From assembly GCA_020631105.1 (NCBI GenBank), contig JAHDHW010000025.1, positions 1 through 39,518 of the forward strand: 39,518 bases of DNA, in the 5' to 3' direction. The position numbers and the translations under genes were made by a program. Below the pieces are notes generated by a model. The model saw only the letters and a list, made by a program, of their open reading frames with translations. It ran no database searches and was not told where the DNA came from. Positions 20,361-23,608 of the stretch are shown one piece after another. This stretch comes from Saprospiraceae bacterium. GTDB taxonomy: Bacteria; Bacteroidota; Bacteroidia; Chitinophagales; Saprospiraceae. Positions within the stretch are counted from its first letter, which is position 1. Every line of letters begins with the position of its first letter.

Positions 20361-21215
20361 ATGAAATTACTTCCAATTGAAAGAGTTTCGGGTATCTCCC
20401 GACGTGACTTCGAGGAAGAATACCTCAAGAAGAATAAGCCGGTCGTTTTTACCGATTTGGCACAAGAGTGGCCTGCTACAGAAAAGTGGACTTTTCAGTG
20501 GCTAAAGGAGAATTATGGACATCTGGAGGTACCACTTTATGATAATGAATTCCGTAAACCCGGTAAGGACTATCTGACTCCTAAGATTAAGATGCCCTTT
20601 GGGGATTATCTTGATATTATTCAGGAAGGCCCAACAGAGTTACGGATGTTTTTGTATAATATCTTTAAGCATGCACCGGAATTAACCAGTGATTTCTCCA
20701 TGCCTACCGTGACAGATGGCTGGTTAAAGAATATTCCGATGATGTTTTTTGGAGGACAAGGTGCCAAAGTAGATCTTCACTACGACCTCGATTGCGCTTC
20801 CGTCTTTATCACACATTTTCAAACCACTAAGAAAGTACTTCTTTTTGGCCCTGATCAAAGTGATTATCTTTACCAGCATCCGTTTACCGTACAAAGTGAG
20901 GTGACCTTGGATGCACCGGATTTCAAAAAACATCCTGCTTTAGAGCATGCAACGGGTTATGATATTGACCTGGCTCATGGCGAAACCTTGTTTATGCCTC
21001 ATCTTTGGTGGCACTATATGTATTATACTGAGGGAGGCTTTTCATTAAGCCTGCGTCGGCATAGTGCTTATACCTTTGCAAGAGGGAGTTTTAATCTTGC
21101 GCGCCACTTTGTAGTGGATAAAGGTATGAATATGGTACTCGGTGACCGTTGGGGAGATATCAAAGCAGGTATGGCTAAGAAACGTGCTTCCGCAGCACTT
21201 GCAACTACATCTTAA
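20361..21215 (+). CDS. cupin-like (JmjC/FIH-type) iron(II) 2-oxoglutarate oxygenase
   Basis: This is a protein of 284 residues of the cupin-8/JmjC group. The N-terminus has the usual DFEEEYLKKNKPVVFTD opening. The metal triad is visible as His140 and Asp142 in LHYDLD and His218 in PHLWWHYM. The stretch KKVLLFGPDQSDYLYQHP fits the family's 2-oxoglutarate region. Known relatives hydroxylate proteins, peptides or small molecules; the target here is unknown. It lies 25 bases after the PLP enzyme, and its stop codon is immediately followed by the ATG of the epimerase. The three are therefore very likely one transcript and possibly one pathway. The ends are complete. Confidence 0.85.
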   Translation: MKLLPIERVSGISRRDFEEEYLKKNKPVVFTDLAQEWPATEKWTFQWLKENYGHLEVPLYDNEFRKPGKDYLTPKIKMPFGDYLDIIQEGPTELRMFLYNIFKHAPELTSDFSMPTVTDGWLKNIPMMFFGGQGAKVDLHYDLDCASVFITHFQTTKKVLLFGPDQSDYLYQHPFTVQSEVTLDAPDFKKHPALEHATGYDIDLAHGETLFMPHLWWHYMYYTEGGFSLSLRRHSAYTFARGSFNLARHFVVDKGMNMVLGDRWGDIKAGMAKKRASAALATTS

Positions 21216-22211
21216 ATGCGGAAAGTATTAGTAACTGGGGCAGATGGGTTATTGGGGAGCAATTTGGTTCGAGAGTTATTGAACCGAGGGTACAATGTCC
21301 GTGCATTTCTACTTCCAAATAGTACTTCAAAAACTTTGGATGATTTAGAGATCGAACGATTCGAAGGGAATATCCTCGAACCGAATGATCTGTCAGCTGC
21401 GATGGATGGCTGTACCCACCTTGTTCATGCTGCAGCGAATACCAATATTTGGCCTGACCGCTCGGAGATTGTTCGAAAAGTAAATATCGATGGCACCAAA
21501 AATGTCATTGAAGCTGCTCTTGGGGCTTCTATCCAGCGAATGGTTTATATCGGTACCGCGAATTCCTTTGGCTTTGGTCCCAAAGAAAATCCTGGTGATG
21601 AAACCAAACCTTATGAATCGGCAATCTATGGCCTGGATTATCAGGACTCTAAATATGAGGCACAACAATACTTGTTGGAGCAAGTCAAAACCAGAAACCT
21701 TCCGGCCTTAGTGATTAACCCTACATTTATGTTGGGCCCGTATGATTCTAAGCCTAGTGCCGGAGCAATGATCCTGGCGATCTATAATCGTAAAGTGCCG
21801 GCATTTGCTCCTGGCGGCAAAAATTATATCTACGTAAAAGATGTTGCTACTGCAATAGCGAATGGCCTGGATGGTAAAGGTAGAGTGGGAGAGTGTTATA
21901 TCGCAGGGCATGAAAACTTAAATTTTAAAGAGGCTTTTACCCGGATCGCTACGCTCGTTGGCGTCAAACCTCCGTCGATCTCGATGCCTGGCGGCATTCT
22001 CAAACTCTATGGTCGAATCGGTTCGTTTATCGGAGATATAACGGGCAAAGCACCAACGGTTACTTATCCGATGACCAAAATTTCTTGTGATGAACATTAT
22101 TTTAGCCCGGCGAAAGCTATTCGCGAATTGGAAATGCCTCAGACGGGATTGGATGTTGCGGTGAAGGAGGCTTTTGGATGGTTTGAGGAGAATGGGTATT
22201 TACAGAAGTGA
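21216..22211 (+). CDS. NAD(P)-dependent epimerase/reductase (extended SDR)
   Basis: This is an extended short-chain dehydrogenase of 331 residues. The nucleotide loop is TGADGLLG (7-14) and the active-site pair is Tyr142 and Lys146 in YQDSK. The body (HAAANTNIW, NIDGTKNVIEAAL, VYIGTANSFG, VINPTFMLGPYD) resembles dihydroflavonol-reductase / HpnA-like members rather than UDP-glucose epimerases. The substrate may be a sugar nucleotide, sterol-like lipid or aldehyde and is not decidable. The start codon abuts the cupin stop with no gap, so translation is probably coupled. The stop codon TGA lies inside the first copy of a repeat (AAGTGAGTTAAT at 22206-22217) that marks the edge of an inserted four-helix cassette, so the last residue may have been altered by the insertion. 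Confidence 0.87.
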   Translation: MRKVLVTGADGLLGSNLVRELLNRGYNVRAFLLPNSTSKTLDDLEIERFEGNILEPNDLSAAMDGCTHLVHAAANTNIWPDRSEIVRKVNIDGTKNVIEAALGASIQRMVYIGTANSFGFGPKENPGDETKPYESAIYGLDYQDSKYEAQQYLLEQVKTRNLPALVINPTFMLGPYDSKPSAGAMILAIYNRKVPAFAPGGKNYIYVKDVATAIANGLDGKGRVGECYIAGHENLNFKEAFTRIATLVGVKPPSISMPGGILKLYGRIGSFIGDITGKAPTVTYPMTKISCDEHYFSPAKAIRELEMPQTGLDVAVKEAFGWFEENGYLQK

Positions 22212-22244
22212 GTTAATCGGTGGGTGAGTCGGTGAGAAAGTGAG

Positions 22245-22601
22245 TTAATGGGAGAGAGAGGATTTCATTTTACTACGATAACGAGACATCACTTTGGTAA
22301 TCATAAGCATGCGATCCATTATATCAGAAGAGACAGAAACGATATTACCTTCACTAAGAATTTCAAGCCAAAATAATGATTCATCGGATTCCTCAACGAC
22401 AATGCATAGTTTAGCGTACCTTTCTTTTAAAGATCTACCTCTACTAAATGCTCTGAAGTTTGCAGCGACGGATGTTACGGATCGAATTAATTGTTTTTTT
22501 ATTATAAATGCTTCTTCTGTTTTCGGAAGCTCTTTAGTAAACTTCAAAATATCCAGGACTAATTTTTTAGTTTCGTTCCGAAATTTAGTGTTAAAATCCA
22601 T
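22245..22601 (-). CDS. four-helix bundle protein (S23/IVP family)
   Basis: This is a small helical protein of 118 residues of the family named after 23S rRNA intervening-sequence proteins; it also resembles the Avd protein of diversity-generating retroelements. The family signature is LIRSVTSVAANFRAFSRGR (38-56), followed by YAKLCIVVEESDESLFWLEI. No enzymatic residues are known in the family, which probably forms basic, nucleic-acid-binding oligomers. No reverse transcriptase or variable repeat is nearby, and it is not inside rRNA. Its stop codon and last residues (SLSH) are encoded within the left repeat array of the cassette. Free-standing copies are frequent in Bacteroidota genomes. The role is unknown. 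Confidence 0.85.
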   Translation of the reverse strand: MDFNTKFRNETKKLVLDILKFTKELPKTEEAFIIKKQLIRSVTSVAANFRAFSRGRSLKERYAKLCIVVEESDESLFWLEILSEGNIVSVSSDIMDRMLMITKVMSRYRSKMKSSLSH

Positions 22602-22720
22602 TTTGTAAATAACTTTGTCTACTATTAAGACTCCAAAGTCGATGGAATTCCATAATTTTTTTTGATACTTTTTTAATCTAATTCTAAAATGCTCACTTAT
22701 CCTATTGTTTTATATCCCTA

Positions 22721-22776
22721 CCCACTAACCCACTAACCCACTAACCCACTAACCCACTAACCCACTAACCCACTAA
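22721..22776. repeat. seven perfect tandem CCCACTAA units
   Basis: The 8-bp unit repeats without change seven times from 22721 to 22776. It then degenerates into CTCA/CACT-type units up to the SDR start codon at 22808. The array is not CRISPR: the period is too short and there are no spacers. Its inverted counterpart is the degenerate array at 22206-22255. Confidence 0.9.
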
Positions 22777-22807
22777 CTCATTCACTCACTAACTGATCCA
22801 CTCACTG

Positions 22808-23608
22808 ATGTCTCTCCAAAATAAATCCATCCTCATCACAGGCTCTTCAATGGGTATAGGAAAAGCAATGGCTTATCAGATGTGCGAACAAGGCGCCAAA
22901 GTCATACTCAATGCTCGTAACGAACAACGACTGAATCGAACGTATGAAGAGATGAAAAGTAAAGGTTACGAAGTAACGGCAGTGGCCGGTGATGTCTCAG
23001 CGATGGAGGATTGCCAGCGAATAATAAAACATGCCATCGATCAATTTGGACAACTGGACGCAGTAGTGAATAATGCCGGAATCTCCATGGAAGGTACAGT
23101 AGAAGAATTAGATCCCGAGGTGTTTCAGAAACTAATGGACGTAAATATTTTAGGGTCAATCTATCCAACCAAAGCTGCATTGCCCTATCTCAAGAAAACG
23201 AAAGGAAGTATCATATTTATTGGAAGTGCCGCAGGTATACGAGGTATTCCTAATCACTCTGCCTATTCAGCATCCAAGATGGCGCTAACCGCTTTAGCTG
23301 AATCCATGAAAATTGAAATGAAGCAAAGTGGAGTTCATGTTGGGATCGCTTATGTCGGTTTTACGCAGAATGATCCCGAAAAAACGATCTATGATAAAGA
23401 CGGAAATATCATCCCTCAGCCTTCACGAGAGTTCATCAAAGCCGAACCTCCGGAGAAAGTAGCTCAAAGAGTTATCAATATGATCCTCAAGCGAAAATTC
23501 AAGGAAGTCTTTACACCTTTAGGAAAATTGAACGCTTTCATGAATCGATTCTTTCCATTTGTGGTAGAGCCAATTCTAAGCAGGAATTATCACAAAAATA
23601 AAGCGTAG
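22808..23608 (+). CDS. short-chain dehydrogenase/reductase (SDR)
   Basis: This is a classical SDR of 266 residues. The cofactor loop TGSSMGIG is at 11-18, NNAG at about 88-91, Asn113, Ser140, Tyr153 and Lys157 complete the catalytic set (YSASK). The Arg/Asn residues after strand 2 (NARNEQR) suggest NADPH preference. The C-terminal 40 residues (RVINMILKRKFKEVFTPLGKLNAFMNRFFP) are basic and hydrophobic, as in SDRs that sit at a membrane with lipid-like substrates. The same-strand epimerase lies 600 bases upstream beyond the four-helix cassette, so the gene may once have been the fourth member of that operon. Its start codon abuts the tandem repeat array. A possible TAnnTTTG box (TAACTTTG, 22610-22617) lies within the cassette. 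Confidence 0.9.
   Translation: MSLQNKSILITGSSMGIGKAMAYQMCEQGAKVILNARNEQRLNRTYEEMKSKGYEVTAVAGDVSAMEDCQRIIKHAIDQFGQLDAVVNNAGISMEGTVEELDPEVFQKLMDVNILGSIYPTKAALPYLKKTKGSIIFIGSAAGIRGIPNHSAYSASKMALTALAESMKIEMKQSGVHVGIAYVGFTQNDPEKTIYDKDGNIIPQPSREFIKAEPPEKVAQRVINMILKRKFKEVFTPLGKLNAFMNRFFPFVVEPILSRNYHKNKA

Follow-up and report, generated by a model that had tools for sequence, protein, structure and literature searches.

In a 39,518-nt stretch of DNA from a Saprospiraceae bacterium (contig JAHDHW010000025.1 of assembly GCA_020631105.1; the whole stretch is hereafter called the window), a cassette of ~600 nt lies between an epimerase gene and a short-chain dehydrogenase (SDR) gene. It occupies positions 22206–22807, with approximate outer ends, and carries a four-helix-bundle (4HB) gene of the S23/IVP type. 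Our results favour, with a probability of roughly 0.6, the interpretation that this cassette belongs to a widespread type of small mobile element, whose inverted arms are cognate to the lineage of the protein that they enclose.

A four-helix-bundle gene between inverted repeat arrays

The 4HB gene (22245–22601) is located on the minus strand, antisense to both neighbours, a feature that was absent from the initial annotation. It encodes a protein of 118 amino acids that matches PF05635 (3e-11) and TIGR02436 (1.7e-17), over curated cut-off. This is further supported by the AlphaFold model of the protein, which consists of four helices (mean pLDDT 95.1) and found its best Foldseek matches in the S23 structures 2rld and 2gsc. 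Avd, as present in particles of diversity-generating retroelements (DGRs; 8ub7, 4dwl), ranked after these S23 structures with weak matches (E 0.03–0.2), scattered among unrelated four-helix proteins, for instance pectin methylesterase inhibitors. The cassette holds no second gene type: only PF05635 was detected, and no other Pfam family matched at E ≤ 0.001.

The initial annotation, made from the sequence alone, had placed the gene between inverted repeat arrays, and direct reading, Tandem Repeats Finder and the complementarity of the edges all confirmed this. The left arm (22206–22252) is a short degenerate array of AAGTGAGTTAAT, GGTGGGTGAG and AAGTGAGTTAATGGG units that is G-rich on the plus strand; direct reading located AAGTGAGTTAAT at 22206 and 22238 and GGTGGGTGAG at 22219. 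The right arm (22720–22807) is C-rich on the plus strand and comprises ~9 units of the 8-mer ACCCACTA, followed by degenerate units. Here, seven copies of CCCACTAA at 22721–22776 are succeeded by degenerate CACTCACTAACT units, and these extend to the SDR start codon at 22808, so that the right array indeed abuts the SDR gene as first described. Tandem Repeats Finder reported the right array at 22720–22793 with a period of 8, 9.2 copies, 92% matches and a score of 120. All 6 matches to CCCACTAACCCACTAA (≤2 mismatches) fell inside this array, against 0.02 expected. The two edges of the cassette are inverted with respect to each other, positions 22202–22252 being 73% complementary to 22761–22811 over 51 nt. 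The marked asymmetry of the arms, short and degenerate on the left, long and regular on the right, had not been mentioned before. It also proved correct that the repeat supplies two stop codons, since both the TGA of the epimerase (22209–22211) and the stop codon of the 4HB gene (TTA on the plus strand, 22245–22247) lie within repeat units. An A/T-rich leader (22602–22719, minus strand) separates the 4HB start codon from the right arm.

The inverted arms are a general feature of 4HB genes, mostly in Bacteroidota, and they also occur in cyanobacterial plasmids and in single assemblies of other phyla. Within the Saprospiraceae family, 126 of the 150 genomes sampled contained 4HB matches, with up to 13 in one genome. 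Over 40 regions of up to 10 kb, 35 of 76 flanks contained an array of period 6–12 no farther than 600 nt from the gene centre, versus 45 of 621 outer bins; the bins were of differing width. Inverted arms exceeded the 99th percentile of distant windows at 25 of 34 usable 4HB loci (6 of 40 were dropped for short flanks), versus 7 of 34 in direct orientation, and arms paired across loci had a median equal to that of distant windows. Among named genomes, for which 7 of 80 loci were dropped for short flanks, inverted arms were found at 30 of the 73 usable loci versus 7 of 438 cross-locus pairs, and 7 loci passed their own threshold in direct orientation. The passing loci include one Ignavibacteriae, one Elusimicrobia and one Alphaproteobacteria assembly. 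Compared with other small genes of the same regions, 4HB genes had inverted arms far more often (46/81 vs 8/209; p = 4e-23), and this also held for genes with intergenic flanks only (39/64 vs 7/129). These main tests have loci in common and are not independent of each other. In a set of 153 loci, obtained from 163 records after removal of 4 with duplicate, short or stop-holding proteins and of 6 more with short flanks, 92 had arms scoring at least 15. One locus without a readable open reading frame (L102) was left out of the tallies.

A 4HB match was also present in 25 plasmid records. Nine of the 12 cyanobacterial plasmids that were read had inverted arms scoring at least 14.5, with repeats that include TAGGGAG, CAGGGAA, GGTGACA and GTTAGCT. 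Several of the plasmid cassettes lie between genes of an operon, as in cas6-4HB-cas4 and cmr2-4HB-cmr3, or antisense between nrdB and nrdA. With a viral origin in mind, the viral_contigs set was searched for relatives of the window protein and contained none; in phages, a relative gave one weak match (8e-4, 76% of the query).

Repeats that vary with the protein lineage

The initial annotation suggested that the flanks of other four-helix genes be compared for the same inverted repeats. Inverted arms were indeed recovered at a large share of these genes, although many loci lacked them at the thresholds used. The expectation of the same repeat was not borne out, and one common repeat for all four-helix genes can be rejected: repeats differ by protein lineage, and each goes with its own.

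This was investigated with the 92 loci that have clear arms, binning pairs by protein identity. Proteins at least 62% identical, at different sites in different genomes, shared arms in 15 of 21 pairs. At lower identity the proportion fell to 11 of 65 pairs (55–62%) and 49 of 1055 pairs (45–55%), and pairs from the same genome with less than 62% identity never shared arms (0/15). When arms were shuffled, the observed mean was reached in 2 of 10,000 trials. Hence, a repeat goes with the lineage of its protein rather than with the genome that carries it. Pairs with homologous flanking genes and proteins below 62% identity shared arm-region sequence in 83 of 181 cases, a figure that is inflated by shared host DNA and was not used.

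Two lineages illustrate the pattern. Proteins of the GNFKxLRVWQDAM type (lineage 1) tend to have TGACGGT-like arms, and proteins of the IKNFKxLxIWxRSR type (lineage 2) tend to have TCAGGNG-like arms. The TGACGGT-type repeat had 184, 11, 5 and 23 matches in four genomes with lineage 1 versus 0, 0, 0 and 1 in genomes without it, where presence means at least 63% identity to the query and the best match elsewhere was at most 41% or missing. Likewise, the TCAGGNG-type repeat had 61, 289, 209 and 85 matches in genomes with lineage 2 (at least 66% identity) versus 2, 0, 0 and 0 elsewhere (best match at most 56%). Both patterns were picked after inspection of the cassettes of four genomes each, and their reversed controls were all 0 in the eight genomes. 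Arms that combine the TGACGGT repeat with a longer composite unit (GACGGACGCTTCGCTGACGG) were seen at L370, L079 and L087.

The length of the repeat unit varies with the protein as well. Relatives of the window protein have arms of their own, mostly inverted and some direct. A strong period was detected in 14 of 24 loci of the window subfamily, the window included; 9 of these have units of 8 nt and 4 have units of 7 nt. The main subfamily had a strong period at 50 of 148 loci, with units of 7 nt at 41 and of 8 nt at 4, and such a period was present in only 5 of 144 control stretches. A period of 8 was more frequent in the window subfamily (9/14 vs 4/50, p = 4e-5), and the window is among the 9. 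That lineage, repeat sequence and period vary together suggests, indirectly, that the protein may recognise its repeat.

Insertion sites, dispersed arms and the host locus

Mobility is indicated by cyanobacterial plasmids, where the element was inserted exactly and with a 5-bp target duplication at two sites. At site A, in plasmid C of Trichormus variabilis, an element of 423 nt has GTAAT on both sides, and the same site is uninterrupted in Nostoc linckia and Tolypothrix plasmids. Joining the flanks gave 0 and 3 mismatches in 120 bases with these empty sites (L265 and L266, respectively). Scytonema carries the site A element as well, with a left array that is 14 nt (two units) shorter, and Nostoc C052 has an internally deleted copy. 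At site E, in Nostoc ATCC 53789, an element of 413 nt lies between TTCTA duplications, and the empty sites are one base longer than the joined flanks. The two elements share 323 of 414 aligned bases and occupy unrelated sites. Exact empty sites and 5-base duplications in these cyanobacterial relatives thus support the proposal of the initial annotation that the cassette is a small non-autonomous mobile unit.

At the window locus, the neighbours are the epimerase gene (21216–22211, plus strand; HpnA-like, scoring under the model's curated cut-off) on the left and the SDR gene (22808–23608, plus strand) on the right, and a gene for a cupin-like protein (20361–21215, plus strand) precedes the epimerase as a further host gene. 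The SDR was searched in 59 genomes, its own included, which gave 24 listed matches; 7 besides the window were inspected. The epimerase was located upstream of the SDR in 5 of these 7 matches and directly adjacent in 4 of the 5 (G016, G150, G029 and G027), with 22–69 nt between the matches. The fifth (G123) has ~1 kb of other DNA between the two genes, without a 4HB match, and G016 retains the cupin-epimerase-SDR order without the cassette. None of the 7 inspected loci matched the window 4HB protein at E ≤ 1e-5. Because all five relatives that keep both neighbours are without a 4HB match there, the window cassette is an insertion between epimerase and SDR. The epimerase-SDR pair without cassette, which the initial annotation had proposed to look for, therefore exists in relatives, so that the cassette has not become fixed here.

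Arms without a gene are dispersed in genomes that contain the cognate protein, either alone or as convergent inverted pairs. Among 20 stretches with cognate arrays from Bacteroidota genomes, 9 have arrays on both strands, all convergent and none divergent; 7 of the 20 were chosen for opposite strands close together, and 3 of the nine convergent pairs are among the other 13. One of these pairs (L371) encloses a 4HB gene and eight do not, and the remaining 11 stretches have arrays on one strand only. A possible route to such remnants is visible in L280, which differs from L114 by an internal deletion through GCCT that left the arms and removed the gene.

A site between fadB-like and thiolase genes shows several of these states side by side. 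Matches were obtained in 104 of 120 genomes, and among the 30 loci listed, 7 contain a 4HB cassette, with at least 5 kinds of repeat; the cassettes of G107 and G108 are alike, as are those of G055 and G062. G037 has inverted arms without a gene, G023 a lone array and G065 517 nt of other DNA. The remaining listed loci comprise 19 with a gap of 27–119 nt and one without a fadB match. Partial 4HB matches at six loci (L233, L236, L239, L241, L243 and L253) were set aside, as they were short, low-scoring and beside or over neighbouring coding sequence; one of the queries (L045) began inside fadB. On a tree of 73 rows, of which 11 carried the label, the 4HB label at this site needs 8 changes, with 38 of the 70 inner branches open, and the 4HB genes there may stem from one origin or from many. 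In one locus (L054), a further array is visible in translation after the thiolase gene. By eye, L167 and L171, whose proteins are 86% identical, lie at different places of the fad operon.

In the genome of the window itself, the right-arm pattern (≤2 mismatches) had 33 matches on 10 contigs, and the reversed control had 0. Among these places, only the window has a 4HB gene detected by PF05635 on the same contig. Four of them are at contig ends, and some may be halves of one array. Assembly breaks occurred within CCCACTAA arrays at contigs C229, C281, C292 and C300 of this genome (G000), and contig ends of other genomes may conceal further arrays. The genome also has a second 4HB gene, whose protein is 48% identical to the window protein. 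It is preceded by ~6 GGTTAAGGAG units beside a run of N, which borders the array, so that the visible part may be partial, and it is followed by an inverted CTTAACCCCTTAAC-like stretch. Dispersal of its repeat AAGGAGGGTT was rejected: of the 6 matches, 5 fall within the locus of this second gene and the remaining one carries 3 mismatches, and 2 matches were obtained with the reversed control.

Explanations and comparison with known systems

How might such an element work? It would consist of one S23/IVP-type 4HB gene between two inverted short tandem-repeat arrays, with a repeat unit that usually measures 7 nt, 8 nt being more frequent in the subfamily of the window protein. The protein, presumably an oligomer like its solved relatives, would bind its cognate array as DNA or as a hairpin, and an enzyme supplied in trans would cut and join the ends of the element. 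Solo arrays and gene-less pairs could arise through mobilisation in trans, internal deletion and slippage of units. The element would settle between genes, where stop codons within the arrays may limit the damage. With respect to the oligomer, a structure paper on XCC0516, by its title as cited in PMC10053308, reports five four-helix bundles in one assembly, and PMC10053308 names PF05635 Avd-like.

Several observations weigh against this interpretation. At the threshold used, 61 of the 153 loci have no arms, and some loci have direct arrays instead of or besides inverted ones. A perfect 5-bp duplication was found at only 2 of the 9 occupied sites that were compared; of the others, one has an imperfect duplication (TAATG/TTATG), five have flanks that diverged or were replaced, with no clear duplication, and one comparison revealed an internal deletion rather than an empty site. 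The window insertion itself is without a base-level empty site. Furthermore, the cassette encodes no recognisable enzyme, and the repeat of the second 4HB gene in the same genome is not dispersed. Finally, the shared arms of close proteins could come from joint descent without any recognition.

There is an alternative explanation, in which a MITE-like element (miniature inverted-repeat transposable element) is moved by an unrelated transposase and the four-helix protein is mere cargo. The 5-bp target duplications resemble cut-and-paste transposition, and gene-less arm pairs exist, and therefore arms alone may suffice for movement. Yet, neutral cargo predicts only joint descent, whereas both the sequence and the period of the repeat follow the lineage. 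In addition, most of the 4HB copies listed from the 150 genomes have no stop in the matched frame. We regard cargo as unlikely, at about one chance in five. A similar, slightly higher weight may be given to an explanation at the RNA level, which is compatible with the others: the arms could pair in the transcript, with the cassette being excised or insulated, so that arm pairing in RNA would possibly be a second role of the element. The window arms do pair in the predicted RNA fold, and cassettes between operon genes, including the cas, cmr and nrd cases, fit such a role. However, this fold of the window cassette surpasses those of shuffled sequences by only a modest margin (z −1.94; 0 of 20 shuffles as good).

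Two other explanations seem considerably weaker. If the protein acted like Avd, it could copy the array or the element together with a reverse transcriptase, in line with the weak structural match to Avd. Against this, no PF00078 reverse transcriptase was found at E ≤ 1e-5 in 3 of 8 draft genomes, among them the genome of the window and G063 (other types of reverse transcriptase were not searched), and none is present at the window locus, where the neighbours are cupin, epimerase and SDR. A reverse transcriptase partner is improbable because three of the eight genomes are without such a match; G063 nonetheless has 300 matches to the two lineage repeats. Least probable of all is a passive origin, with polymerase slippage making intergenic repeats in which small four-helix genes happen to lie. 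The unit-wise length change of 14 nt at site A suggests slippage, and arrays are also present in the outer bins. Yet, arms match within loci but not between them, other small genes with intergenic flanks rarely have inverted arms, and the insertions are exact; the small-gene comparison and these insertions already contradict a passive origin. The mobile element with lineage-cognate arms remains our preferred explanation.

The intervening sequences (IVS) of 23S rRNA are one of the closest known systems. These are insertions with inverted repeats around an S23/IVP reading frame, and those that carry a protein of the PF05635 family are cut from the transcript, by RNase III. Both the family and an insertion with inverted repeats are common to the two systems. 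In contrast to the IVS, the window cassette lies between protein-coding genes and not in rRNA, its arms are tandem arrays, and cognate repeats of such cassettes can be dispersed elsewhere in the genome. To our knowledge, no role of S23/IVP four-helix genes has been established apart from that in 23S rRNA insertions.

Repetitive extragenic palindromes (REP) offer another parallel, as the gene of a REP-associated tyrosine transposase (RAYT) is flanked by two inverted copies of a dispersed, lineage-specific repeat, which is a palindrome. Our cassette resembles REP/RAYT in having one gene, inverted flanking copies and a lineage-specific dispersed repeat, present on 10 contigs in the case of the window. 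It differs in having a four-helix bundle without transposase signature, no Y1 transposase between the repeats, a tandem array of 7–8-mers instead of a palindrome, and 5-bp duplications at two sites. MITEs are likewise small, with inverted ends and gene-less copies, and the target duplication at 2 of 9 compared sites is reminiscent of them; the ends of our element, however, consist of tandem arrays and differ according to the protein inside. Avd of DGRs has a similar fold, with a weak structural match, but the window cassette has no reverse transcriptase gene beside it, and PF00078 was unmatched in the three genomes mentioned above. We consider it probable that these cassettes form a separate element class in several phyla, whose sole gene is Avd/S23-like, whose ends are cognate arrays, and which would have given rise to many of the dispersed repeats of 7–8 nt reported, with no mechanism given, from cyanobacteria and other bacteria.

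The short tandemly repeated repetitive (STRR) sequences of cyanobacteria belong to the bacterial heptamer repeats, which resemble our arms in being tandem 7-mers that are mostly intergenic and dispersed, some of them in convergent inverted pairs. Two papers describe TAACTGA in Beggiatoaceae (PMC4679880), and GGGAATC in Xanthomonas and GGGGA(C/T)T in Nostoc, with 70 convergent inverted pairs in Xcc and 75 in Xac (PMC4692102). The abstract of PMC4679880 states that 'no mechanism is evident' for their spread, and the available portions of both papers give none. The terms 'four helix' and 'S23' are absent from their main texts. X. campestris has both XCC0516 (2gsc) and, according to PMC4692102, GGGAATC repeats. 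Searching 159 of our loci for two tandem copies (1 mismatch) of the published heptamers gave 2 loci for TAACTGA (reversed 1), 0 for GGGAATC (0), 0 for GGGGATT (1) and 1 for GGGGACT (3). A link to the Xanthomonas and Nostoc repeats is therefore only a prediction, because the published heptamers are rare or absent in these loci. Across mainly open-access literature, available in part, we found no link between four-helix genes and short tandem-repeat arms, and the accessible text of PMC4679880, PMC4692102, PMC10053308, PMC10910872, PMC11637426 and PMC5524665 contains none. A phage-region table in PMC5524665 places a four-helix gene between guanylate kinase and adenylyltransferase genes, with no mention of repeats in the part available.

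If our interpretation is true, the function of four-helix genes and the origin of dispersed tandem 7-mers could merge into one puzzle, and a protein-specific repeat would open both to binding and mobility assays. It would also imply a warning for annotation. A four-helix gene in an operon, for example a CRISPR operon, may be an insertion rather than a functional partner, and guilt-by-association surveys may misread inserted cassettes as partners of CRISPR systems. In PMC10910872, the legend of a figure on genes associated with CRISPR adaptation includes '23S rRNA IVP', which could be an inserted cassette of this kind.

In our data, 4HB cassettes were present in CRISPR operons at L115 (2983–3351) and L117 (3001–3360), both cas6-4HB-cas4, and at L120 (2992–3348), cmr2-4HB-cmr3, an arrangement present in PCC 7003. 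Related plasmids of Dolichospermum (L271) and PCC 7002 (L277) have no annotated four-helix gene at those CRISPR sites. Two plasmids of Nostoc sp. ATCC 53789 (L123 and L124) carry two different cassettes in two neighbouring intergenic gaps of homologous operons. In another locus (L108, 4968–5957), the four-helix frame of 329 amino acids continues past the domain into a translated repeat tail of the PLNPST type.
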